NCBI GenBank assembly: GCA_021734245.1
Contig: JAIPJH010000012.1
Coordinates: forward strand, 1-44,741
Direction of reading: 5' to 3'
DNA length: 44,741 nt
From: Candidatus Cloacimonadota bacterium
Lineage (GTDB): Bacteria > Cloacimonadota > Cloacimonadia > Cloacimonadales > TCS61
The notes below the pieces were generated by a model that was given only the letters and a program-made list of their open reading frames with translations, was not told where the DNA came from and did not search any database. Of the stretch, positions 1,770 through 17,001 are shown in pieces (within the stretch, counting starts at the first letter, position 1; each line of letters starts with the position of its first letter). Both the position numbers and the translations under genes were made by a program.

Positions 1770-2408
1770 ATGGGAATTCTGGAAAGAAAGGAGCGGGAGA
1801 AAGAGCAGCGTAAGATCGATATAATCGATGCTGCAGAAAAGGTATTTTTCTCCAAAGGCTTTGATAACGCCAGCATGAATGATGTGGCTGAACAAGCTGA
1901 ATTGAGCAAGGGAACACTTTATCTTTATTTCAACAGCAAAAATGAACTCTGTATGGCTATCATCGTTCGTAGTTTGGAAAAGATTTTGGAGCTGTTCCAG
2001 AAAATTATTGATAAAAATTGTAATGGCCTGAAAAAATTACAATTGATCTCCGAAGAATTCTTAAATTTTACCATCGCTCATCCAAAATATTATAAAGCAC
2101 TACTCACTTTTAGAAATCATAGTATTGAATGTTCTGAAACTGGATATATTTATCAGGAAAGTTTAAAAAAAAATTCAGAGATCAATGATTTGATAAAAAA
2201 AATAATCGAATCTGGTCATGCTGATAACAGCATCTCACCTACTGCTGATGCTGCAAAACTTGCTCAGGCGATCTGGGGAAACTTGACAGGATTTCTTCCA
2301 GGATGCATATTAGCAAAGAATCAGATGAACAAGCAGACTGATGTAGAACCTGCTGTAGTTCTGAGATATATCTTCGAGCTGATACAAAATGCAATAAAAG
2401 CTCAATAA
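1770..2408 (+). CDS. TetR/AcrR-family transcriptional regulator
   Basis: A 212-residue regulator. Residues 13-60 are the TetR helix-turn-helix domain (IIDAAEKVFFSKGFDNASMNDVAEQ, then LSKGTLYLYFNSKNEL), and the C-terminal part is an all-helical ligand-binding and dimerisation domain with no recognisable ligand type. AAGGA precedes the ATG. The gene ends 11 bases before mrpE with no terminator, so it is probably the first gene of the respiratory-complex operon and likely controls it through the palindrome at 1723-1735. TetR proteins are usually repressors relieved by a small ligand; the ligand here is unknown. Confidence 0.9.
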   Translation: MGILERKEREKEQRKIDIIDAAEKVFFSKGFDNASMNDVAEQAELSKGTLYLYFNSKNELCMAIIVRSLEKILELFQKIIDKNCNGLKKLQLISEEFLNFTIAHPKYYKALLTFRNHSIECSETGYIYQESLKKNSEINDLIKKIIESGHADNSISPTADAAKLAQAIWGNLTGFLPGCILAKNQMNKQTDVEPAVVLRYIFELIQNAIKAQ

Positions 2409-2419
2409 CAGGAGTTTTG

Positions 2420-2914
2420 ATGAAATTTTTTAAAAAAGCTGTTTTCTTATTTATCACACTATTTCTCATCTGGATATTACTTACAGGTTTGCACCCACAG
2501 GAATTGATCATTGGAGCAATTGTAGCTTTAATTATCATGTTGATCTTCCTGGGAAGTGCGGAAATTTTTGCTGAGATCAAACTAACGCCAAAAGCATTTG
2601 TTTTCTGGTTGATCTACATTTTTGTGTTTTTGTGGGAACTTATCAAATCGAATCTGGATGTTGCTTTCAGGGTTTTAAATCCAAAACTTCCCATCAATCC
2701 GGGAATCGTGAAAGTTAAAACAAATCTTAAATCTAAGATCGGCAGAATAATCCTGGCAAATTCTATTACACTTACTCCGGGAACGCTGACCGTAGAAACT
2801 AAAGATGATTTCTTCTATATTCACTGGATCGATATAAGCTCTACCGATATCGAAGGAGCTACGAATGCAATTGTGGCAAAATTTGAAAAATATCTGGAGG
2901 TGATCTTTGGATAA
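2420..2914 (+). CDS. mrpE: Mrp/Mbx antiporter module subunit E (MnhE-like)
   Basis: Short membrane protein of the MnhE/MrpE family (MbhA/MbxA in archaeal complexes). Two or three N-terminal membrane helices (residues about 5-75) are followed by a soluble tail with the family pattern LNPKLPINPGIVKV and SITLTPGTLTVE. It belongs to the ion-translocating Mrp module of the complex encoded here. The ATG at 2420 is chosen because GGAG at 2411-2414 is well spaced for it; a TTG at 2417 lies too close to that site. It overlaps the next gene by 8 bases. Confidence 0.88.
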   Translation: MKFFKKAVFLFITLFLIWILLTGLHPQELIIGAIVALIIMLIFLGSAEIFAEIKLTPKAFVFWLIYIFVFLWELIKSNLDVAFRVLNPKLPINPGIVKVKTNLKSKIGRIILANSITLTPGTLTVETKDDFFYIHWIDISSTDIEGATNAIVAKFEKYLEVIFG

Positions 2915-3176
2915 TCTAGCCAATCTTATCTACAACATCGCAGCATATTTGGCTTTGGCAGGAATGATAATCGCACTCATTCGAATGCTGAAAGGACCAA
3001 CTGCGGCTGACAGAGTAGTAGCACTCGATGTAATGACAATCATTTCCATTTCACTGATCGTTTTCATTGCCGCCCTGCTGAAAAGGATCATCTACATTGA
3101 TGTAGCTCTGGTTTATGCACTCATGAGTTTCATCGGAGTAATAGCGATCGCCCGTTACTTGGAAAGGGGGCTATAA
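2907..3176 (+). CDS. mrpF: Mrp/Mbx antiporter module subunit F
   Basis: An 89-residue, three-helix membrane protein of the MrpF/MnhF family (MbhB/MbxB). The conserved stretch MLKGPTAADRVVALD at about residues 27-41 is the family signature and contains the conserved Asp-Arg and second Asp. It starts with TTG at 2907, inside the end of mrpE, behind a strong GGAGGTGA. It is part of the Mrp ion-translocating module, and translation is probably coupled to mrpE. Confidence 0.9.
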   Translation: MDNLANLIYNIAAYLALAGMIIALIRMLKGPTAADRVVALDVMTIISISLIVFIAALLKRIIYIDVALVYALMSFIGVIAIARYLERGL

Positions 3177-3536
3177 ATGGAATTAATTGGAGCTATAGTT
3201 ACACTGATCGGAGCAATATTCCTTTTCCTGGGAGCTCTGGGAATTCTGCGAATGCCAGATGTATATAATAGAATGCAGGCGGGAACGAAAGCAACAACCC
3301 TGGGTAGTATTTTCTTCCTGTTTGGAATCTGCATCGGTCATTCTGTAGGAGTTTGTTTCTGGAAAATCGTTCTGTTAATTTTATTCCTGATTTTCACAAA
3401 TCCTATTTCGTCTCACACCTTGGCACGAGCTGCTCATTTTGCCGGGATCAAGTTAGCAAAACGTTCCGTGAAAGACGATCTGGAAAAGGATGAAAATGAA
3501 TCTGTTAATGAAGATTTTAAGGGAGAAGAAATATGA
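3177..3536 (+). CDS. mrpG: Mrp/Mbx antiporter module subunit G
   Basis: A 119-residue membrane protein of the MrpG/MnhG family (MbhC/MbxC). Three hydrophobic helices are visible, and the family signature GILRMPDVYNRMQAGTKA is at about residues 23-40. The C-terminal 25 residues are a charged tail rich in Glu, Asp and Lys. The ATG directly follows the mrpF stop, with AAGGGG inside the mrpF end as ribosome site. Component of the ion-translocating module. Confidence 0.9.
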   Translation: MELIGAIVTLIGAIFLFLGALGILRMPDVYNRMQAGTKATTLGSIFFLFGICIGHSVGVCFWKIVLLILFLIFTNPISSHTLARAAHFAGIKLAKRSVKDDLEKDENESVNEDFKGEEI

Positions 3537-3820
3537 TTTCCACAATAATTATTGTACTTGGTATTATCATGATCTTTGCAGCATTTATGGCAATCTATTT
3601 CCAAAACCTGGTTTCGGCTATCCTTAGTGCCGGAGTTATCAGTTTACTTGCCAGTATTATTTATATTTTGCTTGCTGCACCAGACGTAGCGATGACAGAA
3701 GCTGCTATCGGATCAGGATTGACCACGGTAGTCTTTCTTTATGCCTTCAATAAAATTAGAAAAATGAAAGTGGAAAACAGGCAGAAAGCAGCTAACGTAA
3801 AAGGAGAAGAAAATGGTTAA
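3533..3820 (+). CDS. DUF4040 antiporter-module subunit (MbhD/MbxD-like)
   Basis: A 95-residue protein with three membrane helices, matching the DUF4040 family found as MbhD/MbxD in archaeal complexes and as part of the MrpA C-terminal region in ordinary Mrp antiporters. The family core LLAAPDVAMTEAAIGSGLTT is at residues about 46-65 and contains the conserved acidic residue of this subunit. The start overlaps the mrpG stop (ATGA). In classical Mrp operons this domain is fused to MrpA; a separate gene is typical of the Mbh/Mbx arrangement. Confidence 0.87.
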   Translation: MISTIIIVLGIIMIFAAFMAIYFQNLVSAILSAGVISLLASIIYILLAAPDVAMTEAAIGSGLTTVVFLYAFNKIRKMKVENRQKAANVKGEENG

Positions 3821-4496
3821 AAGATTCTTCACCTTCCTTTTTATTATATTCCTTATTTATATATTGTTTCCGATGTTCTATGTTATTTTCAGTGATACTG
3901 AACTTAATCCGCTGGCAGCAAATTACGTGAGTGCAGGACCCGATGAACTGGGCAGCCAGAACCTGGTAACATCTGTAATTGTTACTTATCGTGGATTGGA
4001 CACTTTAGGCGAAGTTACTGTTCTGTTCATTGCCACAGCTGGTGTGGGTTTTCTACTGAAAACTAAAGAAGCAAAATCTAAAAAGAGAAAAGCTTCTGAA
4101 CTTCTGCAGACAGGATCCGGTTTCTTAGCACCTATTATAATTTTATTTGGTGTTTATATCTTTTCCCATGGCCATCTTACACCTGGTGGTGGCTTTCAAG
4201 GTGGAGTTATAATCGCTACTGGTATATTGCTGTTGATGCTGGCAAACGTGAACTGGAAAATGAATAAAACTGTGTTACACACAATTGAATCTCTTTCCGG
4301 TGCATTTTATATTGTAATTGGTTTACTGGGAATTTTCCTGGCAGGCGGATTTCTGGATAATCGCATTTTACCTCTGGGAGAATTTGGTACACTTTTCAGT
4401 GCCGGAGCTATTCCCATAATTTACTCTCTGATTGGACTAAAAGTAGGTTCCGAACTGGTGGGAATTCTGGATAACTTGAGCGGGGAGGAAGCATGA
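3813..4496 (+). CDS. mrpB: MbhE-MnhB fused antiporter-module subunit (MbxF-like)
   Basis: A 227-residue protein joining two small Mrp-module domains. The N-terminal part carries NLVTSVIVTYRGLDTLGEVTVL (about residues 50-71), the MbhE pattern; the C-terminal part from about residue 95 is MnhB/MrpB, with the signature HGHLTPGGGFQGG at about 120-132. About six membrane helices are visible. In Mbh these domains are two genes (E and F); one fused protein here fits the Mbx-type layout. It overlaps both neighbours by a few bases. Confidence 0.87.
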   Translation: MVKRFFTFLFIIFLIYILFPMFYVIFSDTELNPLAANYVSAGPDELGSQNLVTSVIVTYRGLDTLGEVTVLFIATAGVGFLLKTKEAKSKKRKASELLQTGSGFLAPIIILFGVYIFSHGHLTPGGGFQGGVIIATGILLLMLANVNWKMNKTVLHTIESLSGAFYIVIGLLGIFLAGGFLDNRILPLGEFGTLFSAGAIPIIYSLIGLKVGSELVGILDNLSGEEA

Positions 4497-4846
4497 TCTT
4501 AGTTTCAATGCTTGGCTTTATTCTTATCATTATTGGTTTGTGGGGAATGCTGACTCAGAAAAATATCATCAAGATGATCATTGGATTTTCCATAATCGAT
4601 ACCGGAATTCATCTCGTGATAGTTTCCATTGGCTACCTGAAAGACCGCACAGCTCCCATTTTGGATGCTGCAGTTGAAAAAGCAACAGCAGTAGAAAGAG
4701 TAGTCGACCCTGTTCCCTCTGCTCTGGTTCTAACTGCAATTGTAATCGGGCTGGCCGTTACAGCGCTCATGCTGGTTTACGCCGTGCAAATGTATAAACA
4801 TAAAAAATCATTGCAGATAAATGATTTTGAGGAGTTGAAATGGTAA
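4493..4846 (+). CDS. mrpC: Mrp/Mbx antiporter module subunit C (NuoK-like)
   Basis: A 117-residue, three-helix membrane protein of the MrpC/MnhC/NuoK family (MbhG/MbxG). The last helix contains DPVPSALVLTAIVIGLAVTAL, the most conserved part of the family. Between helices two and three is a loop (about residues 45-70) longer than in NuoK but usual in Mbh/Mbx homologues. The ATG overlaps the preceding stop, and the end overlaps the next start by 7 bases. Confidence 0.9.
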   Translation: MILVSMLGFILIIIGLWGMLTQKNIIKMIIGFSIIDTGIHLVIVSIGYLKDRTAPILDAAVEKATAVERVVDPVPSALVLTAIVIGLAVTALMLVYAVQMYKHKKSLQINDFEELKW

Positions 4847-7800
4847 ATCCTATCTGGATACTGCTTGTAACTTTGGGAATTGCCTTCCTGATAGCTTTAT
4901 TTGATAAACTCTCTCGAAGTTTATCTCAACTTGTCTTTTTTGGAGCTTTGGTATTAACTACGGCTATTTCGGCTCAATGGTTTTTTAATATTCTATATGG
5001 TGGTGAAGGAACACAGATTTTCACAGCCGGCACGATTCCACCGATCTCGATCAATTTGCAAATGGGCCTGGAAGAATCATTATTCACTTTTCTTATAAAT
5101 CTGGCAGCTCTGCTTTCAGCTTTGTATCTTGCTCCAAAATTCCGACTGGCAAAATCGTATGCTTTGTCATTGTATCTGGCATTGGTTCTGGGTTTGAACG
5201 GACTGGTGATGACGCGTGATTTATTCAACGTATTTGTTTTTCTGGAAATCACTGCCATTTCCACTTACGGTTTGATCGCCCTGAATAAAAATACACAAAG
5301 CCTTTCTGCCGGATTTAAATATCTCATCGCCGGAGGATTAGCTTCTGCTTTCTTCCTGCTGGGAACGATTTACATCTACAAATTCACCGGAACATTAAAT
5401 ATCGATTTTATTATCAATTCTCAGGAAATGCTATCAGGAAAACTTGGATTTCTGGCATTATTTCTGCTACTTTCTGCAGTTCTAATTGAGCTGAAACCAT
5501 TTCCTGCCAACGGTTGGGCATTGGATGTTTATCAAGCCGCCGATCCGGGTATTTCGGCTCTCATTGCAGCAGCTTCATCGGCTGCCATATTTTTTGTGTT
5601 TTATAAATTAATTTTTCTTTTTGATGCCATTCTTCCCGCCATCACGGTTTTGGGAATGATCACTTTTATCGGCTCGAATCTGGTTGCTCTGAAGCAGACG
5701 AATGGACGCCGATTGCTGGGCTATTCTTCCATTGCACAAATGGGATTGCTTCTGGCTGCCTTAGCTTTGATCTTCCAATTTTCCGATTTGGAAAGTGTGG
5801 GAAATTCTATTTTTGTAATTATTGGTGGTTTGTTCATCAATCACTTCCTGGCAAAAGCTGGTTTATTCTGGTTAGCAGGAATGGTTAAAGGACAGAAGCT
5901 GGAAGATTTTGCCGTTTTGAAATCCGATCCCATGAAAATTATCATGTTCACTTCATTTTTGTTCGCACTTATCGGTTTACCACCATTTCCGGGTTTCTGG
6001 GCAAAATGGGAGCTTATAATGCAGTTGGCAGCCAACAATATGTTACCCTTGATAGGCTTGATCTTATTCGGATCGCTGCTGGAAGCTGTTTACCTGCTGC
6101 GCTGGCTGGTAAAGATCGTTTCCTCAAAAACTAAAGAACCATCAACTTATAACTTTAATAAAGTTCTTCCTGTTTCGTTATTCTTTTTGCTGCTTTATCT
6201 TTTTGGCTTGATCTCCTCGAATCATCTGGAAGGTTCCGATCCACTCTACCTCTTCCCCATCATGTTTGGAGCAATTTTGTATGCCCTGGACTGGCTGCCT
6301 GCAAAAATGAAAACTTTTCTGGTGATTTTTATTACATTGGGAACCGGATATTTGATTGTGCCGGAACTTTCTGGAATTCGCTATATTTTTGGAATTATGT
6401 TTATCGCTGGAAGTGCTATTCTGCTGATAACCACATTACATTCCAAAGGAATCCGAAGAGGATTTTATCCGCTTATCGTGATGCTGATAACTTCGCTATC
6501 CGGTCTTCTGCAGGCAGAAACGACTCTGCAGTTTTTCCTCTCCTGGGAAATCATGGCGATCAGTGCTTTTCTGCTGATATTACGAGGAAAATTCTCTGCT
6601 CCGCATGCTTTGCGATATATTTTATTCTCCACTTTAGGAAGTTATTTCATACTTACAGCTTTTGGTTTTGCTTTTCGAGAAAACGGTAATGTGCTGCTGG
6701 AATCTTTTGCCATGATCTACACTTCCGCTCCCACAATTTTAATTTTCCTTTCTCTGGGATTTTCGATAAAAAGCGGTGCTTTGGGCCTTCATTTATGGTT
6801 GCCGGGTTCATATGCAGAAGCTGAAGATGATTTTTCACCGTTTGTTTCGTCGCTACTCAGTAAAGCAGGAATTTTTGGATTCCTGATATTCCTGGGAATT
6901 TTCGGTAAAAACTTTCTGGGAGACACTTCGATTACCGTTCTACTGGGATGGATTGGAGTTTTAACAGCCTTCTTCGGAGCGTTGATGGCAATTTTCCAGG
7001 AAGACATCAAATATCTTCTGGCTTATTCCAGTATGAGTCAGATCGGTTACATCGTGCTTACGGTTGCCTCTCTCAGTCATCTGGGCTGGGTTGCGGCTAT
7101 TTATATGAGTGTAAATCACTTCCTGTTCAAAGCGATCTTGTTCATCACGGTCGCCGGAGTAATATCCCGAGTGGGAACGCGAAATATGTTTGAAATGGGC
7201 GGTCTTATCAAGAAAATGCCATTATCATTTGTAGCTGTTCTCATTTCCATCATCGCCATTTCAGGCGTTCCGCCGTTAACAGGATTTGGCAGTAAATGGT
7301 TGATGTACAACGCATTATTTGATAAAGGCTGGTATCTGCAGGCAGGATTAGCTTTCTTTTCCGGAGCAATTTCGTTCCTGTATCTTTTCCGTTTGATCCA
7401 CACGATCTTTCTGGGACAGGGAAAAACTGCTCACAAAAAAGTGAAAGAGGCTTCACCGTTTTACATTGTTCCCTCATTTCTGCTCATCATGGTCATCATG
7501 GCATTTTCCACATATCCAAATCTTTTGATAAAACCAATTACTGCAGCTGTGGAAACACATTTTGCCACAAACATAAATTGGGAAAATTACACTCTGATCA
7601 GTCCGTTTGGTTATTGGAATGGCTATAATGTAATGCTTGTAACGATGGGTGTTTTCATGCTGCCACTTATCTGGATTTCACTGCGCATCCGCTCGATTCG
7701 TAAAGTAAAACAGTTCAACATAGTTTACGCAGCCGAACGACCGGAAAAACCGGAAACTACTCATTTTGCCTACAATTTCTTTGCGCCCTATCAGAAGGCT

Positions 7801-7971
7801 CTGGGATTTCTGGTGGAGCCCCGTGTAACCAAAATCTGGAATTCTGTTGTAGAATGGACTTATTCCATTTCCGCATCATTAAGGCATATTTATACAGGAA
7901 ATGGTCAAACCTACGGACTTCACATCATAATGTATATAGTAATAATTTATTTTGCAATTGGAATAAAATAA
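4840..7971 (+). CDS. double antiporter subunit: fused MbxH-MbxH' (two NuoL/M/N-type domains)
   Basis: A 1043-residue membrane protein made of two consecutive proton/sodium-conducting (NuoL/M/N, MrpD) domains. Domain one (about 1-480) has the ion-channel residues E136 (FVFLEITAIS), K219 (ELKPFP), K339 and K389 (GFWAKWE). Domain two (about 490-930) has E570 (FLSWEIMAIS), K644 (IKSGALGLHLWLPG), K675, K764 and K819 (GFGSKW). Both halves therefore look functional. A C-terminal tail of about 100 residues ends in another helix. In archaeal Mbx operons H and H' are two adjacent genes; here they are one. The start has GAGGAG 6 bases upstream. Expected role: two ion-translocation paths driven by the electron-transfer module downstream. 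Confidence 0.9.
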   Translation: MVNPIWILLVTLGIAFLIALFDKLSRSLSQLVFFGALVLTTAISAQWFFNILYGGEGTQIFTAGTIPPISINLQMGLEESLFTFLINLAALLSALYLAPKFRLAKSYALSLYLALVLGLNGLVMTRDLFNVFVFLEITAISTYGLIALNKNTQSLSAGFKYLIAGGLASAFFLLGTIYIYKFTGTLNIDFIINSQEMLSGKLGFLALFLLLSAVLIELKPFPANGWALDVYQAADPGISALIAAASSAAIFFVFYKLIFLFDAILPAITVLGMITFIGSNLVALKQTNGRRLLGYSSIAQMGLLLAALALIFQFSDLESVGNSIFVIIGGLFINHFLAKAGLFWLAGMVKGQKLEDFAVLKSDPMKIIMFTSFLFALIGLPPFPGFWAKWELIMQLAANNMLPLIGLILFGSLLEAVYLLRWLVKIVSSKTKEPSTYNFNKVLPVSLFFLLLYLFGLISSNHLEGSDPLYLFPIMFGAILYALDWLPAKMKTFLVIFITLGTGYLIVPELSGIRYIFGIMFIAGSAILLITTLHSKGIRRGFYPLIVMLITSLSGLLQAETTLQFFLSWEIMAISAFLLILRGKFSAPHALRYILFSTLGSYFILTAFGFAFRENGNVLLESFAMIYTSAPTILIFLSLGFSIKSGALGLHLWLPGSYAEAEDDFSPFVSSLLSKAGIFGFLIFLGIFGKNFLGDTSITVLLGWIGVLTAFFGALMAIFQEDIKYLLAYSSMSQIGYIVLTVASLSHLGWVAAIYMSVNHFLFKAILFITVAGVISRVGTRNMFEMGGLIKKMPLSFVAVLISIIAISGVPPLTGFGSKWLMYNALFDKGWYLQAGLAFFSGAISFLYLFRLIHTIFLGQGKTAHKKVKEASPFYIVPSFLLIMVIMAFSTYPNLLIKPITAAVETHFATNINWENYTLISPFGYWNGYNVMLVTMGVFMLPLIWISLRIRSIRKVKQFNIVYAAERPEKPETTHFAYNFFAPYQKALGFLVEPRVTKIWNSVVEWTYSISASLRHIYTGNGQTYGLHIIMYIVIIYFAIGIK

Positions 7972-7984
7972 TTAGGAGAGTTTG

Positions 7985-8902
7985 ATGGAATTTAGTTTTC
8001 CGAATTCAATATATTTTGCGATAATTTCACTGGCATTTGCTATAATTTATGGTTTATTCATGTTTGGCTTTGTAGCCAGGATCGTGGCACGTGTTCATGG
8101 AAGAATTGGAATGCCGGTCTGGCAGCCGTTTCTGGATATCATCAAAAACAACGGCAAACGCACCATGATATCACATGGAATAATGTTTTATCTTGGTTCT
8201 GTATTTCGTTTAGCTGGTGGACTGGGATTATATCTTTTTATGCCGGTTTTATACGGTTCAGAATTTTTTGCCAATTTCAGTTTCAGCGGAGATCTGCTTC
8301 TTTTGATGTATTTCTTCTTTTTTGGCCAGTTGGGAATGGCTTTGGGTGCTGGAGAAAGCGGACATCCTTACGCTGCAATGGGAGTAAGTAGAGGACTTTC
8401 TCAAATGACGGCCTTTGAAGTTCCCTACACTTTAGCGGTTATTTCTCTGGTAATCCAATATAAAACTTTAAACGTGCTTGATATTGTTGCCGCTCAACAA
8501 GGTTCATTTCTAAACTGGACGCTCTTCACAAATCCCCTGGCAGTAACAGCTGCTATTTTAGCAATGCTGGGAATGAACATGCATTCACCGTTCGATATTG
8601 TGCGTGCACCACAGGAAATTCCAGTTGGACCTCCAGTTGAACATCACAGCGCTTTTCTGGGAATGCTGCAGACAAATCGAGCTCTATTCAATGTTGCAAA
8701 ACTGATTTTATTCATGAATCTTTTCTTCGGTGGTGCTACGAATCTTATTGTGCTTATCATCAAAACTTTCCTCATTTATATGATTTCGGTTGTGGTTGGC
8801 GTTGCCTTCCCACGTTTCCGAACCGAACAATCGATCCGATTTTTCCTGGGAATTCCAACCATTATTGGAATTCTATCGATAATATTCTGGGCAATAAAAT
8901 AA
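7985..8902 (+). CDS. NuoH-like membrane anchor subunit (MbxM-like)
   Basis: A 305-residue, roughly eight-helix membrane protein of the NuoH/HycD/MbhM family. It anchors the peripheral electron-transfer arm and links it to the ion channels. Family signatures are ARVHGRIGMPVWQPFLDIIK at about 34-53, GAGESGHPYAAMGVSRGLSQM at about 120-140, and the acidic loop FDIVRAPQEIPVGPPVEHHS at about 202-221. The ATG at 7985 is preferred over the TTG at 7982 because AGGAG lies 6 bases before it. Confidence 0.9.
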   Translation: MEFSFPNSIYFAIISLAFAIIYGLFMFGFVARIVARVHGRIGMPVWQPFLDIIKNNGKRTMISHGIMFYLGSVFRLAGGLGLYLFMPVLYGSEFFANFSFSGDLLLLMYFFFFGQLGMALGAGESGHPYAAMGVSRGLSQMTAFEVPYTLAVISLVIQYKTLNVLDIVAAQQGSFLNWTLFTNPLAVTAAILAMLGMNMHSPFDIVRAPQEIPVGPPVEHHSAFLGMLQTNRALFNVAKLILFMNLFFGGATNLIVLIIKTFLIYMISVVVGVAFPRFRTEQSIRFFLGIPTIIGILSIIFWAIK

Positions 8903-8915
8903 GGAGAGCCTTCCA

Positions 8916-9536
8916 ATGAAAAAAGAAAAAGAAAAATTAGCAAATCTGGGTTTGCCGGAACATGAACGAGACCTCTTTTGTGATGCCCGTCCGACACCTT
9001 CTAAACCTTTTGCCAGATACATCGAGAAATTTGTTAACTGGGCACGAGCAAACTCTCTGTGGCTGATCGCTTACGGAACAGGCTGCGGTGCCATTGAGCT
9101 GCGCCCGCTGATGACTTCCCGCTACGATATGTATCGATATGGAATAGCTCCCCGACCGACTCCGCGCCAATCGTCGGTTTTCATCATCGGTGGCTACATG
9201 AGTGTAAAAACACTGAAGCGCGTTGTACGCAGTTATGAACAAATGCAGAATCCCAAATTCGTGATCGCTCTGGGCAGCTGCACGATAAACGGCGGCATGT
9301 ATTACGATAGTTATTACACCATAAATCGCGTCGATCATTACATTCCGGTTGATGTGTATGTGGCAGGTTGTATGCCGCGACCAGAAGCAATTATTGCAGG
9401 CTTCAACAAACTGAAAGAACTTATCAAAGCCGGCAAAGGTGAAGGTGCCAATAAATATGCCGAGAATTTTGACTGGTACAAAAATAATCAGAAAAAGATA
9501 ATTAAAGACTGGAATATGCCCGATTATAACTGGTAG
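8916..9536 (+). CDS. NuoB/hydrogenase small-subunit-like protein (MbxJ-like)
   Basis: A 206-residue soluble subunit homologous to NuoB and group-4 hydrogenase small subunits, expected to carry the FeS cluster nearest the catalytic site. Visible cysteines are C22, C57 (GTGCGAIE), C122 (GSC) and C152 (AGCMPRPEA). NuoB has a tandem CC, and hydrogenases CxxC, at the first position; here only C57 is present, so three of the four usual ligands remain. The fourth may be C22 or a non-cysteine residue, or the cluster may be altered. The N-terminal 50 residues are charged and lack the usual fold signature. It sits between the NuoH- and NuoC-like genes in the operon. Confidence 0.88.
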   Translation: MKKEKEKLANLGLPEHERDLFCDARPTPSKPFARYIEKFVNWARANSLWLIAYGTGCGAIELRPLMTSRYDMYRYGIAPRPTPRQSSVFIIGGYMSVKTLKRVVRSYEQMQNPKFVIALGSCTINGGMYYDSYYTINRVDHYIPVDVYVAGCMPRPEAIIAGFNKLKELIKAGKGEGANKYAENFDWYKNNQKKIIKDWNMPDYNW

Positions 9537-9542
9537 GAAAAA

Positions 9543-10103
9543 ATGAAAGAATTATTGAACGCAATTAAGAAAAAATATGGATTAAAAAAAGTTGTTAAGC
9601 AGCGAGATGATTTGTTTTTCGTAACTGTACCCAAGAGTTATGCTGTCGACTTCATCACACACATGAAAGATTATGAAAAATTTACACATCTTGCTTTCTT
9701 AAATGCAGTGGACCGGCTGGAAAAGAATCTTTTTCAACTTACTTATCTGCTGGATAATCCCACCTCAAATATAAGTTTGGGAATTCGTGTTGAAGTATCT
9801 CGAACTGAACCGGAAATGACGACAATTCATCATCTCTGGAATCAGGTTGCAGCTTACGAAAGAGAATTAAAAGAAATGTTCGGAATTCGCTTTCCCGGCA
9901 GTCCACGCCAGCATGAATCTTTTGTTTTGGAAGGTTGGCAGGAAATTCCACCCATGCGCAGAGATTTTGATACGCTCAAATATTCCAATGAAACCTTCTT
10001 CCCACGACCAGGAAGGCAAACACACGATCCCAAAGAATATATGAAAGAAAAGCTATATCCTGATTTCTTTAAAAAAGAAAAGGAGGAAACAGATGAACGC
10101 TAA
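9543..10103 (+). CDS. NuoC-like 30-kDa subunit (MbxK-like)
   Basis: A 186-residue soluble subunit of the NuoC/HycE-N/MbhK family, which packs against the NuoD-like subunit and has no cofactor. The family signature spans about residues 104-145: WNQVAAYERELKEMFGIRF, then PPMRRDF. The length fits MbhK-type proteins. AGGAAAAA precedes the ATG, and the 3' end overlaps the NuoD-like gene by 11 bases, which suggests coupled translation and equal subunit amounts. Confidence 0.88.
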   Translation: MKELLNAIKKKYGLKKVVKQRDDLFFVTVPKSYAVDFITHMKDYEKFTHLAFLNAVDRLEKNLFQLTYLLDNPTSNISLGIRVEVSRTEPEMTTIHHLWNQVAAYERELKEMFGIRFPGSPRQHESFVLEGWQEIPPMRRDFDTLKYSNETFFPRPGRQTHDPKEYMKEKLYPDFFKKEKEETDER

Positions 10104-11259
10104 TCGAGATAAATATCCTCCTATTCATAACGGAAAAGCGAAGATCGATCTTGATTCTCAAAAATATGTGAAATTGTGGCAAGGTCCGCAACATCCCGGT
10201 GTGACAGGAAATATGTCTTTGGAAGTAACTTTGTGCGGTGATGAAGTAGTCGATCTTAAAACGCACGTGGGCTATTTGCATCGCGGTTTTGAAAAATTGA
10301 TCGAACGCCGCAAATTCATCCAGAATTTTACTATCGTCTGCCGCATCTGCGTTCCCGAACCCGATACGAATGAATATTTATATTGCGCTGCTGTGGAAGA
10401 TCTGGCAGGAATTAAAGTTCCCGAAAAAGCAGTCTGGCTGCGAACCTTAACGATGGAACTTTCCCGTTTAGCAAGCTTTCTCATGTGGATCGGCGGACAA
10501 GCCGGAGCTTTGGGATTGGGAACAGTAGGACAATGGACTGTAACGCATCGTGATTATATTCTGGATCTTTTTGAAGAGCTTTCCGGTGCCAGAATTTATC
10601 ATATGTACATTGTTCCCGGCGGCGTACGATATGATCTTCCTGATGGGTTTGATAATAGATTGGAAGCTGTACTTCAAAAAGTTGAAAAACTTCTAAAAGA
10701 AGTAAAAATGGTGCTTCTAAACAATATCGTTGTAAAAAAACGTCTTATCGGTTTGGGAATTATCAATCAGGAAATGGTTGATCAATTTGGAATTGTCGGG
10801 CCAAATGCCCGTTCTACAGGATTGAAAAGAGATATTAGAAAAGACAATCCCTATTTAGTTTATGATCAACTGGATTTTGAACCTGTAACTCATTCTCATT
10901 CAGATGCTTACAATAGAATAGTTAGCAGATATAATGAGATGTTGCAGTCAATTGATCTGATTCGTCAAATCATGCGCAGAATTCCGGAAAAAGGCAAAAT
11001 TCATAAAACACTGCCTAATGTACTGAACTGGAAAATTCCAGCTGGAGAAACCTATGTGAAAGCCGAATCCACCCGCGGTGAATACGGCTATTATCTGGTT
11101 TCAGATGGTTCTGGTAAACCTAGAAGATGTTACGTGCGAGGTCCCAGCTACACACATGCAATTCCACTTTTGGAACATTTAGCAATCGGAACAAACATCG
11201 CAGATCTTGCAGCTTTGATGGTTTCTCTGCACACTTATCCACCGGAAATTGAGAGGTAA
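10093..11259 (+). CDS. NuoD/NiFe-hydrogenase-large-subunit-like catalytic protein without NiFe ligands (MbxL-like)
   Basis: A 388-residue homologue of NuoD and group-4 hydrogenase large subunits (HPGVTGNMSLEV, VGYLHRGFEKLIERR near the N-terminus). Where NiFe enzymes have RICGIC, this protein has C83-R-I-C86-V-P-E89, so C86 aligns with the first ligand and E89 with the second. The C-terminus (RGPSYTHAIPLLEH...LAALMVSLHTYPPEIER) has no CxxC at all and resembles NuoD. A NiFe centre is therefore very unlikely, and the protein should not be called a hydrogenase. This state is like the Mbx/Mbs family, where electrons go to sulfane sulfur or NAD(P) rather than to protons. AAGGAGGAAACAG precedes the ATG. 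Confidence 0.88.
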   Translation: MNANRDKYPPIHNGKAKIDLDSQKYVKLWQGPQHPGVTGNMSLEVTLCGDEVVDLKTHVGYLHRGFEKLIERRKFIQNFTIVCRICVPEPDTNEYLYCAAVEDLAGIKVPEKAVWLRTLTMELSRLASFLMWIGGQAGALGLGTVGQWTVTHRDYILDLFEELSGARIYHMYIVPGGVRYDLPDGFDNRLEAVLQKVEKLLKEVKMVLLNNIVVKKRLIGLGIINQEMVDQFGIVGPNARSTGLKRDIRKDNPYLVYDQLDFEPVTHSHSDAYNRIVSRYNEMLQSIDLIRQIMRRIPEKGKIHKTLPNVLNWKIPAGETYVKAESTRGEYGYYLVSDGSGKPRRCYVRGPSYTHAIPLLEHLAIGTNIADLAALMVSLHTYPPEIER

Positions 11260-11263
11260 AATT

Positions 11264-13045
11264 ATGAGCTTAAAAGATATATTGTCACCGTTTTATGTTT
11301 GGAAGAGAGCTTTCGAAAAACCCTACACAACACCAAATCCGCTTCAAGACAGACCAGGAGCCGAAAGATATCGAGGTTTTCATCAAAATGATCTGGAAAA
11401 ATGCATCGGCTGTGGCTCTTGTGAAGCGATCTGCCAGAATGCAGCAATCGACATGGTTCCGGTAGAAGGAATTGAAACGACGAAAAAAGACAGTGGACTT
11501 CGTCCGCAAATAGATTATGGTCGCTGCTGCTGGTGCGCTTTATGTGTAGATATCTGTACAACCGATTCCTTGAAAATGAGCAATGATTATACCTGGGTAG
11601 ATACTGATGCAGATGTTTTTCGATTTGTACCGGGAGCAGAAACAAAAAAATGGGACAAAATCGAAGAAGGTTATCAGCGGAGTGATGAATATAAATTGTT
11701 ACTTCCAGATCAAATAAAAATGCCGATGATGACAGCAGATGAAAGCATTCAATCTTTTTTGGAAGTGGTGAAAGGATACTCCAAAAATGAAGCGATAAGA
11801 GAAGCAGAACGGTGCGTGGAATGCGGACTTTGTGTGGCTTCCTGTCCTGCCCATATGGACATCCCCGAATACATCAAAGCAATCAGAGAAGATAATCTGG
11901 AAGAAGCTTTACAGCTGCTTTATAAGACAAATCCAATGCCTTCGACATGTGGAAGAATTTGTACTCATCTTTGTGAAGGTGCTTGTTCGATTGGTGTAAA
12001 GGGTGAAGCTCTGGCAATTCGCTGGCTCAAACGCTATATTGTAGATCAGATCGAACCTTCCAAATTCAAAGAAATTCTAAAGGATGAATTCAAACCCAAC
12101 AATAAGAAAATAGCAATAATTGGAGCAGGCCCGGCTGGTTTGAGTGCTGCATATTATTTGATTACTACCGGTTATGATGTTACAGTTTTTGAAGCTAATG
12201 AAAAAGCCGGCGGCATGATCCGTTATGGCGTTCCCGAATATCGCATGCCCTACGATAAACTGGATGAAGAAATCGCTTACATCGAAAATCTGGGAGTGAA
12301 GATAAAATATAATTACAGGATCGGAGAAAAGATAAAATTTCAGGATCTGCAAAATGATTTCGAGGCAATTTTCATTTCTCCGGGTATGTGGAATTCCATT
12401 CCTGTAAATATTGTAGGTGAAGAACTTCCGCAAGTATTATCGGGAATTCAGCTTCTGAACAAAGTGACAAATAAAGAAAAAATAGAACTTGGCAAAAAAG
12501 TGGGTGTTATTGGTGGTGGAAACTCTGCCATGGATGCTGCCAGAACCGCTCGCAGATTGGGAGCGGAAGTTGATATCTATTATCGTCGAAGAATAGAAGA
12601 TATGCCTGCTGATGATGAAGAAATTGATGAAGCTCAGGAAGAGGGAATTAAATTCTATCCGCAAACAACACCCTTGGAAATCAAAAAAGACGGAAAGGGA
12701 ATTATTTTAATTTGGGGTAAGAATAAAATGAAATATGAGGAAGGAAAACGCCCGAAACCCATTCTTATCAAAGGTGAATCTTTTGAAGTGAAACTTGATT
12801 CATTGATAATTGCTATTGGTCAGAATGCCGATTTCACATTCCTACCAGAAAAATTAAGAGATAAAATTGAAACAAAATGGGATAAGATCGTGGTGGATGA
12901 AAATGGCAAGACCAACATTCCCAAAGTATTTTCCGGTGGTGATGCTTCCAATTATAAAGCTGATGCCATCAGCGCAATTGCCGATGGTCACCGTGCTGCG
13001 ATGGGAATCGATAAATTTTTGAATTCAGGTAAAAATGTAAATTAA
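11264..13045 (+). CDS. fusion of NuoI-like ferredoxin subunit and NfnB/GltD-type NAD(P)H-FAD oxidoreductase
   Basis: A 593-residue protein. Residues 1-140 form a NuoI/MbxN-like ferredoxin with two [4Fe-4S] motifs: C47-C50-C53-C57, and C88-C91-C94-C98 within RCCWCALCVDIC. Residues 180-245 hold two more cysteine sets, C184-C187-C190-C194 and C229-C233-C237-C241, the latter as in GltD/NfnB N-terminal domains. Then come the FAD motif IAIIGAGPAG (about 283-292), the NAD(P) motif GVIGGGNSAMDAA (about 414-426) with YYRRRIEDMPA typical of the GltD/NfnB family, and a C-terminal FSGGD FAD signature. In archaeal Mbx the N subunit is only the ferredoxin part. The fusion places an NAD(P)H site directly on the ion-pumping complex. 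The ATG at 11264 follows GAGAGGT; an in-frame TTG at 11249 inside the previous gene is less likely. Confidence 0.9.
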   Translation: MSLKDILSPFYVWKRAFEKPYTTPNPLQDRPGAERYRGFHQNDLEKCIGCGSCEAICQNAAIDMVPVEGIETTKKDSGLRPQIDYGRCCWCALCVDICTTDSLKMSNDYTWVDTDADVFRFVPGAETKKWDKIEEGYQRSDEYKLLLPDQIKMPMMTADESIQSFLEVVKGYSKNEAIREAERCVECGLCVASCPAHMDIPEYIKAIREDNLEEALQLLYKTNPMPSTCGRICTHLCEGACSIGVKGEALAIRWLKRYIVDQIEPSKFKEILKDEFKPNNKKIAIIGAGPAGLSAAYYLITTGYDVTVFEANEKAGGMIRYGVPEYRMPYDKLDEEIAYIENLGVKIKYNYRIGEKIKFQDLQNDFEAIFISPGMWNSIPVNIVGEELPQVLSGIQLLNKVTNKEKIELGKKVGVIGGGNSAMDAARTARRLGAEVDIYYRRRIEDMPADDEEIDEAQEEGIKFYPQTTPLEIKKDGKGIILIWGKNKMKYEEGKRPKPILIKGESFEVKLDSLIIAIGQNADFTFLPEKLRDKIETKWDKIVVDENGKTNIPKVFSGGDASNYKADAISAIADGHRAAMGIDKFLNSGKNVN

Positions 13046-13073: not shown

Positions 13074-13535
13074 ATGCTGATAGAAGATATTTTAAAAGAA
13101 AAAGGCCGACAAATAATATCGATCAATCAAAAAGATTCTATCTGTGATGTTTTGCAGCTTTTCACAGAAAAGAAGATCGGCTCGGTAATCGTGATGGATG
13201 ATAATGAAAAAATTGCCGGGATAATAACTGAAAAAGATGTTTTAAAATGTTATCGGGATGCTGAAAAATTCGATCAATTGAAAATAAAAGATTTTATGAC
13301 TCCCAAAGAAAACCTGATAATTGCATCTTACAATGATGACATCCAATATGCCATGTGCATGATGACAAAACACAGGATAAAGCATTTGCCGATTTTTAAA
13401 GATTCTCAACTTTTTGGGATAATTTCAATAGGAGATCTCATCAAAGCCCAACTTAAGCAAAGCCAGCATACTGCGAAAACATATCTTGATCTTTTGGAAG
13501 GAAAAACTCCTCAACCTGACAATGAAGAATTTTAA
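13074..13535 (+). CDS. CBS-pair domain protein
   Basis: A 153-residue soluble protein made of two CBS domains (about 1-62 and 72-132), with characteristic GSVIVMDDNEKIAGIITEKD and IKHLPIFKDSQLFGIISIGD strands. CBS pairs bind adenine nucleotides such as AMP, ATP or NAD and regulate partners. It starts 28 bases after the oxidoreductase fusion, with AAAGGAG upstream and no terminator between, so it is probably co-transcribed and may report energy or redox state to the complex. That link is inferred from position only. Confidence 0.85.
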   Translation: MLIEDILKEKGRQIISINQKDSICDVLQLFTEKKIGSVIVMDDNEKIAGIITEKDVLKCYRDAEKFDQLKIKDFMTPKENLIIASYNDDIQYAMCMMTKHRIKHLPIFKDSQLFGIISIGDLIKAQLKQSQHTAKTYLDLLEGKTPQPDNEEF

Positions 13536-13931: not shown

Positions 13932-14819
13932 ATGAAAAAATTTATCATTTTATTAATCGCAGTTATGATCGTTGTTCCTGCTGTTATTAGTGCAAAAGTT
14001 GCTTATCTCAGCGAAGAAGATTATAAGAAATTGAACAAGAAAGAAAGATTGGCTTACTGGGATGAACTTGAAACAGAATTAGCTGCTCTTCAACAAAGAA
14101 AAGCAGACGCTATAGCACAACAAGAACAATGTACAGCTCAGATGGATGATCTCAAAAAGCAGGAAATGGCACTTGATACAGAATATCAGCAAACCTATAA
14201 TTCAATTCTGGCAATGCTGAATGTGGAGAAAAAAGCAGTTCCAGCTATTAATACAAGATTGGACGAATTCAATCAGAGAGTAAGCAACTGGGAAAAACTT
14301 TCTGATGATGAACTTTGGAAAGCCAAGAAATCTGTTCGCGGATTGATTGCTGAATACAAAGATTATCGCGATACAAACGAAACCCTGGTTCCAGATTATC
14401 GTAAAGAATTTTCCGATCTTGATAACAGAGTTGCCAATCTGGAAAGATCTCTTGATAATGCTGAACCAAAATACTATGAAGACACATATACCATTGTGAA
14501 AGGTGATTGGCTCTCTAAAATTGCCGGTTATAGCTTTATTTATAACGACATTTCCAAATGGCCCATCATTTACCGAGCAAATCGCGACAGAATTAAAGAT
14601 CCAAACCTGATCTATCCAGATCAAGTTATCAAAATTCCTCGCGGTCTTCCCAATGAATGGAAAGTTTACAGAGGTGAATGTCTGTGGAGAATTGCCGGTT
14701 ATCCAGAAGTTTATAACAATGCGGCAAAATGGCCTATGATCTACAGAGCAAACAAAGACAAGATCAAAGATCCTGATTTGATTTATCCAAATCAGATATT
14801 CCAGATACCAAGAGACTAA
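13932..14819 (+). CDS. secreted coiled-coil protein with two LysM domains
   Basis: A 295-residue exported protein with a signal peptide (residues 1-21). Residues about 35-175 form a long coiled coil (ELETELAALQQRKADAIAQQEQ and following). Two LysM domains close the protein: about 187-238 (YTIVKGDWLSKIAGY...IYPDQVIKIPRG) and 242-295 (KVYRGECLWRIAGY...IYPNQIFQIPRD). LysM binds peptidoglycan. With the lipoprotein just upstream it suggests a structural link between outer membrane and cell wall. A clear terminator follows. No catalytic domain is seen. Confidence 0.87.
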   Translation: MKKFIILLIAVMIVVPAVISAKVAYLSEEDYKKLNKKERLAYWDELETELAALQQRKADAIAQQEQCTAQMDDLKKQEMALDTEYQQTYNSILAMLNVEKKAVPAINTRLDEFNQRVSNWEKLSDDELWKAKKSVRGLIAEYKDYRDTNETLVPDYRKEFSDLDNRVANLERSLDNAEPKYYEDTYTIVKGDWLSKIAGYSFIYNDISKWPIIYRANRDRIKDPNLIYPDQVIKIPRGLPNEWKVYRGECLWRIAGYPEVYNNAAKWPMIYRANKDKIKDPDLIYPNQIFQIPRD

Positions 14820-14837
14820 TTCTTATAAATATAAAAG

Positions 14838-14872
14838 AAGCCTCTCTTCAAAATGTTGAGAGGCTTTTTTTG
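14838..14872 (+). terminator. Rho-independent terminator
   Basis: Stem AAGCCTCTC (14838-14846) pairs with GAGAGGCTT (14858-14866) and runs into a T-tract. It ends the lipoprotein-LysM unit. Confidence 0.9.
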
Positions 14873-14901
14873 AAACTAATTCTTTTTTTTAGGACAGTTC
14901 G

Positions 14902-17001
14902 TTGGAAAAAATTAAATATATCCTTATCATTTCTACTGCAATTATTATTGCACTTCTGCACTTCCTGGTAAACCCCTACAAGTTTTATAACTATCAGTAC
15001 GACCTTAAACTTGGTGAGATTGCAGAAAAGGATATTATTGCTCCTTTTGATTTTTTTGTTTATAAAAACCAGGAAACTTTGAAAGCTGAACAGGATGCTG
15101 CAGCTGCCAAAGTACAGCCGATTTACAGAGTTTCGGAAAATCTTAAATTCAACGCACAAAAAAATCTGGATTTCATATTTCAGCATTTTACATTATCTAC
15201 AATAAAAGACAGTACAGAAATCAGAGAAAAGCTACTGCAAAATGGATATGACCTATCAATGAACAGTATTCAAAACCTGATGAATGATAAGAGAAGATTT
15301 AGAATTTATAACTTTCTTGCAAAAGAGCTTTCCGATATTTTCACAATTGGAATTTATCCTGACAATTATCGTTATCAGAAGATCAAATTAGTAAAAATCA
15401 ATAGAATTACTGAATATGAATTAAACCGCCTGTATTCGTTGGAGGAAGCTAAAAATAAGCTTATAGCAAAATCAAGTTCTGATATTGATAAACAGATAAT
15501 AAAAGAGATCGCCGATATTATTTTAATCGAAAATATCGTTATCGATAACGAAATGACCGAGCTGGAAAAGCAGAAAGCGCGAGAAAAAGTTCCAACAACT
15601 TTGGGTAAAGTTCAAAAGAATGAAGAAATAATCGGAAAGAATCAAAAGGTAACATCTACAGAACTTCTCAAGCTTCAATCGATGCTGAGAGCTCAGAAAG
15701 ACCAATCTACAAAGAAAAACAACAATCAATTAATACTATCATCTCTGGGTGTATTTCTGTTTTCAATAATCATTCTTTTTGCGTTATATTATATTCTTAG
15801 CATTTTCTTTCCCAAAAACTTCAGTTCTACTCCAAGGCTGGTTATCTTGCTGTGCAGTCTTATTACTTCTATATTATTCACGATAATTGTTAATAGTTTA
15901 TTGCAACTACCATCGCTGATAATTCCCTACAGTTTCAGTGTACTTCTAATTGCAATCATTTTCTCACCACACGTAGGAATCACATTCAATTTTATTAATC
16001 TTATTTTTGTTTCATTATTCCTTAGCTGGAGTATAATAAATCCGATCGTAATGTGCCTTGCAACTCTGGGTGGAGTTATCGCTCTTAAGAACATGAAAAA
16101 AAGATTGGAATATTATCCGCTGACATTATATCTGATTTTAGGATTTCTTCTTATTATTACTTCTTTCACCCTGATCCGTCATGAAAGTTTTATGATCTTC
16201 CTGTGGCATTTATTGTGGTCTACGATTTCTGTTATTAGCTCTATCATGATATTGGTATTGCTAACACCGATTGTAGAAAGAAAGCTGAATATGGCTACAA
16301 AACAGATATTGTTAGAGCTTCTGGATTTTGATAATCCTGTTCTAAAAAAAATGTCGATGATAATTCCCGGAACTTATCATCATTCCCTCATTGTAGGAAA
16401 CCTGGCCGAAAGTGCAGCAGAAGGGATTGGAGCGAACCATTTATTAGCGCGCGTGGGAAGTTATTATCATGATATCGGCAAATTGGAAAATCCCCAATTC
16501 TTCGTGGAAAACAATCCCAATTCCACCGAACTTCACGATAAAATGCAGGCCAATGAAAGTGCAAATCTTATTAAAAATCATATTGCCAATGGAGTTGCCT
16601 TAGCAAAACGTTCCAAACTGCCAAAACCTGTTATTGAAATTCTGCAGCAGCACCACGGAACCAGCAAAATACGTTATTTTTATAATAAAGCAATTGAATC
16701 TAATCTGGAAATCGATGAAAATCAATTCCATTATGAAGGTCCTAAACCACAAACCAAAGAAGCTGCCATTGTTATGATCGCAGATATAGTGGAATCTACC
16801 ACCAAATCACTTTCTGATTTTAGTGAAGAAGCTATTTCGGATGTGATGGACAAAACTTTGAAAAATCTTATAAATGATGGACAATTGGATGAAGCTCCAG
16901 TTACCATACGGGAATTGGATATCATAAAAAAATATATGCTGCCGATTTTGATGGGAGTTTACAGAAAACGCCTGGAATATCCAGAAGAACATAAGGACTA
17001 A
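14902..17001 (+). CDS. 7TM-HD family phosphohydrolase (PgpH-like, c-di-AMP phosphodiesterase candidate)
   Basis: A 699-residue protein with the architecture of the PgpH/YqfF family: one N-terminal helix, an extracytoplasmic domain (about 30-270), a block of about seven helices (about 275-470) and a C-terminal HD domain. The metal-binding motif is visible as GTYHHSLIVGNLAE near 490 and YYHDIGK near 522, with QQHHGT further on. Characterised PgpH proteins hydrolyse cyclic di-AMP. The start is TTG with AGGA 7 bases upstream. It overlies ybeY as in many genomes (pgpH-ybeY), which supports the assignment. Substrate here is inferred from the family. Confidence 0.88.
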   Translation: MEKIKYILIISTAIIIALLHFLVNPYKFYNYQYDLKLGEIAEKDIIAPFDFFVYKNQETLKAEQDAAAAKVQPIYRVSENLKFNAQKNLDFIFQHFTLSTIKDSTEIREKLLQNGYDLSMNSIQNLMNDKRRFRIYNFLAKELSDIFTIGIYPDNYRYQKIKLVKINRITEYELNRLYSLEEAKNKLIAKSSSDIDKQIIKEIADIILIENIVIDNEMTELEKQKAREKVPTTLGKVQKNEEIIGKNQKVTSTELLKLQSMLRAQKDQSTKKNNNQLILSSLGVFLFSIIILFALYYILSIFFPKNFSSTPRLVILLCSLITSILFTIIVNSLLQLPSLIIPYSFSVLLIAIIFSPHVGITFNFINLIFVSLFLSWSIINPIVMCLATLGGVIALKNMKKRLEYYPLTLYLILGFLLIITSFTLIRHESFMIFLWHLLWSTISVISSIMILVLLTPIVERKLNMATKQILLELLDFDNPVLKKMSMIIPGTYHHSLIVGNLAESAAEGIGANHLLARVGSYYHDIGKLENPQFFVENNPNSTELHDKMQANESANLIKNHIANGVALAKRSKLPKPVIEILQQHHGTSKIRYFYNKAIESNLEIDENQFHYEGPKPQTKEAAIVMIADIVESTTKSLSDFSEEAISDVMDKTLKNLINDGQLDEAPVTIRELDIIKKYMLPILMGVYRKRLEYPEEHKD

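Follow-up and report, generated by a model that had tools for sequence, protein, structure and literature searches.

A ferredoxin-flavoprotein fusion in an MBS-type membrane complex of Cloacimonadota and its possible role in electron exchange between NADPH and sulfane sulfur

MBS complexes have been studied as ferredoxin-fed forerunners of complex I. A gene in a Candidatus Cloacimonadota bacterium raises the question of whether such a complex can instead carry its own pyridine nucleotide enzyme and, if so, what that enzyme does with the electrons. The gene is the last of a 12-gene cassette at positions 2417-13045 of contig JAIPJH010000012.1, of which a stretch of 44,741 nucleotides (the window) was analysed. 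An earlier note, made from the DNA letters alone, described its product as a single-polypeptide fusion of a NuoI-like ferredoxin and an NfnB/GltD-type oxidoreductase and asked whether it bifurcates electrons or simply transfers them. The features of the locus are collected in Table 1.

Table 1. Features of the cassette, its flanking genes and the fusion protein, in window coordinates.
Feature	Position	Strand	Basis
TetR-family regulator, candidate regulator of the cassette, directly upstream	1770..2408	+	Pfam TetR_N
MrpE/MbsA-like antiporter subunit	2417..2914	+	Pfam MNHE 2e-42
MrpF/MbsB-like subunit, 89 aa	2907..3176	+	ORF and position; family inferred from order and sequence
MrpG/MbsC-like subunit	3177..3536	+	Pfam PhaG_MnhG
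MbhD-like subunit	3533..3820	+	Pfam MbhD
MbhE+MrpB-like subunit	3813..4496	+	Pfam MnhB and MbhE
MrpC/NuoK-like subunit	4493..4846	+	Pfam Oxidored_q2
Double ND-type antiporter protein of 1043 aa, equivalent to MbsH plus MbsH'	4840..7971	+	Pfam Proton_antipo_M x2
NuoH/MbsM-like membrane anchor	7982..8902	+	Pfam NADHdh
NuoB/MbsJ-like subunit, TGCG + GSC + AGCMPRP	8916..9536	+	MBS 6u8y_J score; alignment
NuoC/MbsK-like subunit	9543..10103	+	Pfam Complex1_30kDa
NuoD/MbsL-like subunit	10093..11259	+	MBS 6u8y_L score; alignment
Fusion: NuoI/MbsN-like ferredoxin (residues 1-145) and GltD-fold FAD/NADP(H) module (146-593)	11264..13045	+	Frame, Pfam, NCBIfam, alignments, Foldseek
FeS motif 1, C47-x2-C50-x2-C53-x3-C57	11402..11434	+	Invariant 41/41
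FeS motif 2, C88(C89)-C91-C94-C98, extra invariant C89	11525..11557	+	Invariant 41/41
FeS motif 3, C184/C187/C190/C194 = NfnB C39/C42/C47/C51	11813..11845	+	Invariant 41/41; NfnB numbering PMC7596348
FeS motif 4, C229/C233/C237/C241; last three = NfnB C90/C96/C100, C229 extra	11948..11986	+	Invariant 41/41
Lys256 codon, at NfnB Glu cluster-ligand position and StnC K170	12029..12031	+	Lys in 41/41 fusions; alignment
FAD GxGxxG motif, residues 285-292	12116..12139	+	Pfam, alignment
NAD(P) site, GGGNSAMD (417-424) to YRRR (440-443), NADP(H)-type	12512..12592	+	Alignment; DsrL analogy PMC7596348
CBS-domain protein downstream of the fusion	13074..13535	+	Pfam CBS

The fusion is encoded by a single open frame of 593 codons and a stop. 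Its ATG sits 4 nt past the stop of the NuoD-like gene and has a GAGAGG motif upstream. Pfam assigns Fer4-type dicluster domains to residues ~46-101, Fer4_20 to 163-264 and Pyr_redox_2 to 282-573, and the model NF010590/PRK13984 spans residues 2-589, end to end, with 700.6 bits, below its curated cut-off of 946 bits. PRK13984 is a provisional NCBIfam family named only 'putative oxidoreductase', and the fusion architecture is already known to databases under that entry. The four FeS motifs had been placed at residues 47-57, 88-98, 184-194 and 229-241, and these numbers are exact. None of the 17 cysteines, among them the extra C89 and C229, is replaced in any of 41 homologues. C229 as a unique fourth ligand is a weakened proposal, as some NfnB proteins (loci L092, L096-L098) also carry a cysteine there. 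A missed stop between the ferredoxin and flavoprotein parts had been named as grounds for doubting the fusion. The full-length frame is open in ~40 independent genomes from several phyla, so a missed stop or assembly artefact is ruled out, and the fusion is genuine.

Occurrence of the fusion is patchy. Across the whole phylum (125 genomes) there are ~43 near-full-length matches, and among 40 relatives ~14 encode the full-length protein; two genomes of the window's own genus are without it. An MBS-type NuoD-like gene is present in 41 of the 125 genomes, a few of these being weaker matches to other complexes. The fusion is also found in Neomarinimicrobiota, Bacteroidales, Thiothrix, Aliiroseovarius, Chromatiaceae and Thiotrichales, and in 2 of 298 genomes of one alphaproteobacterial family. 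No genome of the phylum (125 genomes) reaches the PRK13984 cut-off of 946 bits. T. maritima, the sole control genome with a PRK13984 match at E<=1e-150, scores over it. Broken frames occur in NuoD of a Thiothrix MAG (L023:6961-8014), in MrpC of genome G122 (L084:4492-5105) and in the fusion itself at L017 (G003:C131), which suggests local assembly errors or decay.

The cassette runs from MrpE-F-G through MbhD, MrpB, MrpC, the double antiporter, NuoH, B, C and D to the fusion, the order known from the P. furiosus mbx/mbs genes. Every intact locus examined that spans the cassette has the same order, with the fusion always present as the final redox gene. The most divergent loci (L026, L080, L083) have two unfused antiporter genes and keep the fusion. 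In the double antiporter protein of the window, NCBIfam places subunit N at residues 10-452 and subunit M at 513-1038. Homologues of the upstream TetR-family gene occupy the same position in L076, L083, L084, L087, L088 and L089, and the downstream CBS-domain gene adjoins the fusion also in L021, L084, L088, L089 and L090; its product might sense adenylates or redox state on behalf of the complex. In Neomarinimicrobiota and Proteobacteria a rubrerythrin/ferritin-like gene lies directly 3' of the fusion, identified by Pfam at L021:9825-10283 and L026:9830-10333 and by sequence likeness at L023:9689-10294, L024:9635-10318 and L117:8461-8958. Such a neighbour possibly shields the complex from oxygen or peroxide. 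Behind the divergent cassette of L080 (14706-20000) lie genes for a HycB-like ferredoxin, a histidine kinase, a response regulator and a true hydrogenase-like NuoH/B/C/D set.

The subunits encoded upstream of the fusion resemble MBS more closely than complex I. MBS differs from complex I in that its proximal [4Fe-4S] cluster is held by only three cysteines and its quinone residues H38/Y87 are lost, and both features have been tied to S-S reduction (PMC7684303). The NuoB-like subunit of the window aligns with three cysteine ligands of this cluster, in the motifs TGCG, GSC and AGCMPRP, and has no CC pair; the three-cysteine signature TGCG/GSC/AGC is found in all fusion-linked NuoB-like proteins that were aligned. 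In the NuoD-like subunit, the positions of Nqo4 H38 and Y87 hold Thr and Val, and the quinone residues are absent in all aligned fusion-linked NuoD-like proteins. The scores agree: the NuoD-like subunit reaches 326.2 bits against MBS 6u8y_L and 223.1 against T. thermophilus Nqo4, the NuoB-like subunit 220.8 bits against 6u8y_J and 143.7 against the best complex I-like chain, and the NuoI half 84 bits against MBS N versus a comparison value of 54. The cassette also holds a full Mrp-type antiporter set, with MrpF assigned by position, and two ND-type pump subunits, which are fused. Judged by these alignments the complex belongs to the MBS type, which corrects a reading of the locus as complex I-type (Nuo).

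Complex I is rejected on the same residues and on scores ~80-100 bits lower than those for MBS. Between 2417 and 13535 no gene resembles NuoE, NuoF or NuoG, and the genome has no PF00346 gene besides the NuoD-like one of the cassette; the organism therefore has no separate complex I. A related proposal is that a quinone or other carrier serves as the partner at the NuoB/D site, making the complex an NADPH:quinone oxidoreductase of the complex I type. The subunits are complex I homologues by Pfam, as this would require, but the missing quinone residues, the MBS cysteine pattern in place of CC and the margin in bits make it very unlikely. A group 4 [NiFe] hydrogenase (MBH) is also rejected: the motifs RICVPEPD and HTYPPEIER of the NuoD-like subunit keep one of the four Ni-Fe cysteines, in contrast to the true hydrogenase-like large subunit at L080:18883. 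A 'group 4g [NiFe] hydrogenase linked to Mrp' has been reported from Ace Lake Cloacimonadota (PMC8542988). Cassettes such as the one at 2417-13045, which lack the Ni-Fe cysteines, could be mistaken for an Mrp-linked group 4g hydrogenase.

The P. furiosus MBS (PDB 6u8y), whose L, J and N chains are the closest solved relatives, shares with the window the gene order, two ND-type pumps, the three-cysteine proximal cluster and the loss of the quinone residues. It differs in its electron input. MbsN is a stand-alone protein that accepts ferredoxin, whereas the MbsN half in the window bears a 450-residue FAD/NADP(H) module. The pump subunits are fused in the window, and MbsJ C25, which is dispensable for activity, is absent. 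The fusion complex is a variant within the MBS kind and not a new class.

We compared the flavin half with characterized GltD-fold enzymes. An AlphaFold model of the fusion has pLDDT values mostly of 80-96 in the flavin half and of only ~33-75 in the NuoI half and the linker. In Foldseek the flavin-half model matches NfnL (5jca_L) with a TM score of 0.88 on the target and an rmsd of 2.2 Å. The GltD/NfnL fold of the earlier description therefore stands, but the flavin half is not an NfnB proper. In a tree, 21 of 21 fusions form one clade (100/99), apart from the NfnB clade that includes P. furiosus NfnL (100/100); the GltD domains of the NuoG, HdrA and YgfK types also fall outside the fusion clade. 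Compared with NfnB/NfnL (PDB 5jca, 4ylf), the fusion shares the fold and cofactor sites and differs in a two-residue deletion in the GRxC..C motif, in its separate clade, in the lack of NfnA and in Lys256, which stands in place of the Glu cluster ligand. In StnC, K170 replaces this Glu at the FAD-proximal cluster, and its authors consider StnC to have lost bifurcation (PMC10482914). The NfnB of L084 has Phe at the position despite an NfnA neighbour, so Glu is not universal among NfnA-paired NfnB proteins, and the Lys256 argument is supportive rather than absolute.

No NfnA partner is present in the cassette or genome, in which the only PF10418 protein adjoins PyrD (dihydroorotate dehydrogenase). 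The genome does encode a 1151-aa StnC-like GltD-NuoG protein (L091:2331-5783; G000:C49), so that transhydrogenation is probably served by Stn rather than Nfn. StnC of the Stn transhydrogenase (PDB 8oh5) also resembles the fusion: each joins a GltD-fold NADPH module to a complex-I-type FeS protein (NuoG in StnC, NuoI in the window), has Lys at the cluster-ligand position and has a linear electron relay. StnC is soluble and feeds a bifurcating FMN in StnB, whereas the relay in the window would end in a membrane pump. Bifurcation by the fused flavin, as in NfnAB, would be in keeping with the GltD/NfnL fold and with the invariant FAD-site Arg R327, which corresponds to NfnL R201. An equivalent Arg is, however, present in non-bifurcating StnC (PMC10482914), and L084 has a separate NfnA/NfnB pair (14416-16634) beside a cassette with its own fused copy. 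With the separate clade, Lys256 and the lack of an NfnA-type second acceptor, we regard bifurcation as highly improbable and reject a bifurcating NfnB identity. Given its own clade, a Lys as in StnC and no NfnA, the answer that best fits the question of bifurcation or transfer is transfer; the flavin half, as judged from its residues, probably does not bifurcate.

The nucleotide used by the flavin half can be predicted by analogy with DsrL. In DsrL, enzymes with a YRR motif are NADP(H) enzymes and those that have lost it are NAD(H) enzymes, as determined by kinetics (PMC7596348). DsrL, an enzyme of sulfur metabolism, resembles the fusion in having a dicluster ferredoxin joined to an NAD(P)H module of the GltD type; unlike the fusion, it has an extra C-terminal ferredoxin domain and DsrAB as its partner, and is not membrane-bound. 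The motif split of the fusion family parallels that in DsrL. The subclade of fusions to which the window belongs has YRR, in the window itself as YRRR behind the second Rossmann motif. SLE or ALE takes its place in the other subclade, where the proteobacterial, Neomarinimicrobiota and Bacteroidales members all fall. By this analogy the YRR branch, including the window, probably uses NADP(H), and the YRR-less branch, including the sulfur oxidisers, probably uses NAD(H).

On balance we consider it probable, with considerable room for doubt, that the fusion supplies an MBS-type Na+/H+ pump with a permanently attached NADP(H) module, which does not bifurcate, and exchanges electrons between NADPH and sulfane sulfur. 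The membrane complex would combine an Mrp-like Na+/H+ antiporter arm and two ND-type pump modules with an arm made of NuoH/B/C/D, at the end of which the three-cysteine [4Fe-4S] cluster sits, and its electron-input subunit would be permanently joined to the GltD-fold FAD enzyme. Electrons would pass, in either direction, between NADPH, FAD, the two [4Fe-4S] clusters of the flavin half, the two of the MbsN half and the open-coordinated proximal cluster, where the S-S bond of a polysulfide or an organic disulfide or trisulfide would be cleaved or formed. The flavin would hand on both hydride electrons one after the other, NADPH and the sulfur compound would exchange electrons directly in place of ferredoxin as donor, and the redox reaction would be coupled to ion translocation, as proposed for MBS. 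The earlier note had proposed a continuous electron wire from the complex to the pyridine nucleotide. What stood of this proposal is that four [4Fe-4S], FAD and NAD(P) sites lie in one chain with conserved ligands; spacing of the clusters close enough for electron transfer is a step we infer, along with sulfane sulfur as the partner, ion pumping and the direction of flow. For the branch of the window we prefer the forward direction, oxidation of NADPH, on the sole ground that NADPH reduces more strongly. From NADPH to polysulfide the driving force is small, by our estimate roughly 0.1 V, which weighs against the proposed relay in a machine with several pump modules and makes reversal plausible. 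No sulfur genes were seen in the window, which also counts against it. A search of open-licence papers found no biochemistry of any fusion member.

Ferredoxin is the partner that the literature would suggest. In MBS, MbsN is the point of ferredoxin entry (PMC7684303), and published work assumes ferredoxin to be the donor of bacterial MBX (PMC9431562). Ferredoxin may likewise enter at the MbsN half of the fusion. Docked there, it could send electrons to NADP+ with ion pumping, or electrons from ferredoxin and from NADPH could converge en route to sulfur. The P. furiosus Mbx was formerly interpreted as a ferredoxin:NADP+ oxidoreductase, and reduced ferredoxin is a currency of this organism, because the genome has Rnf. 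Against this, electrons would bypass the conserved open-coordinated proximal cluster and the pump arm if ferredoxin simply fed NADP+, and the fused flavin domain may mask the ferredoxin site. We therefore hold a ferredoxin-fed complex to be improbable.

A possible but less likely alternative to the NADPH-fed relay is a reverse machine, at least for the YRR-less branch. By reverse electron transport it would spend an ion gradient on the uphill reduction of NAD(P)+ by sulfide, persulfide or thiols. The small redox span would ease such a reversal. In the Riftia symbiont, expression of an Mrp-Mbx complex goes together with that of the reverse TCA cycle (PMC11636981). SoxB is encoded in all four proteobacterial carriers first found (Thiothrix, Aliiroseovarius, Chromatiaceae, Thiotrichales) and in a further carrier, G133, and all SoxB-encoding carriers have T/A-L-E in place of YRR, like the NAD+-linked DsrL-1 of sulfur oxidisers (PMC7596348). 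SoxB is, however, common in one of the families of the carriers, an alphaproteobacterial one (186 of 298 genomes); its presence is therefore no enrichment, and it was set aside as support for a link to sulfur oxidisers. The window itself has YRR, which speaks against reversal in its own branch. The two branches might also differ in function. We put forward only tentatively, as a doubtful proposal, that the YRR branch links NADP(H) to sulfane sulfur and the YRR-less branch links NAD(H) to it, the latter working in reverse in sulfur oxidisers, where an ion gradient would drive it as a sulfide/persulfide:NAD+ oxidoreductase.

The preferred reading, a direct link between NADPH and sulfane sulfur, bears on MBX complexes beyond this phylum. 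The T. maritima MBX has been described as a 13-subunit MBS homologue with ferredoxin as the donor, in passages that make no mention of the flavin module, and its mbxA is induced 4.36-fold by S0 (PMC9431562), which counts in favour of the preferred reading. The T. maritima genome encodes the full-length fusion architecture seen in the window, in a PRK13984 protein that gene order suggests may be the last mbx subunit; its match exceeds the 946-bit cut-off, whereas the window protein reaches 700 bits. In the open-licence literature no description of an NAD(P)H module in MBS or MBX came to light, and older reviews may mention one.

The comparison suggests that the assignment of ferredoxin as the donor of T. 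maritima MBX deserves a retest. A widespread bacterial form of MBS with a built-in NAD(P)H dehydrogenase would represent a NuoEFG-independent way to gain pyridine nucleotide input. The YRR split would predict the cofactor, and perhaps the direction, from sequence. If the YRR-less branch does run backwards in sulfur oxidisers, it would lead electrons from sulfide directly to NADH, with neither quinone nor complex I taking part.
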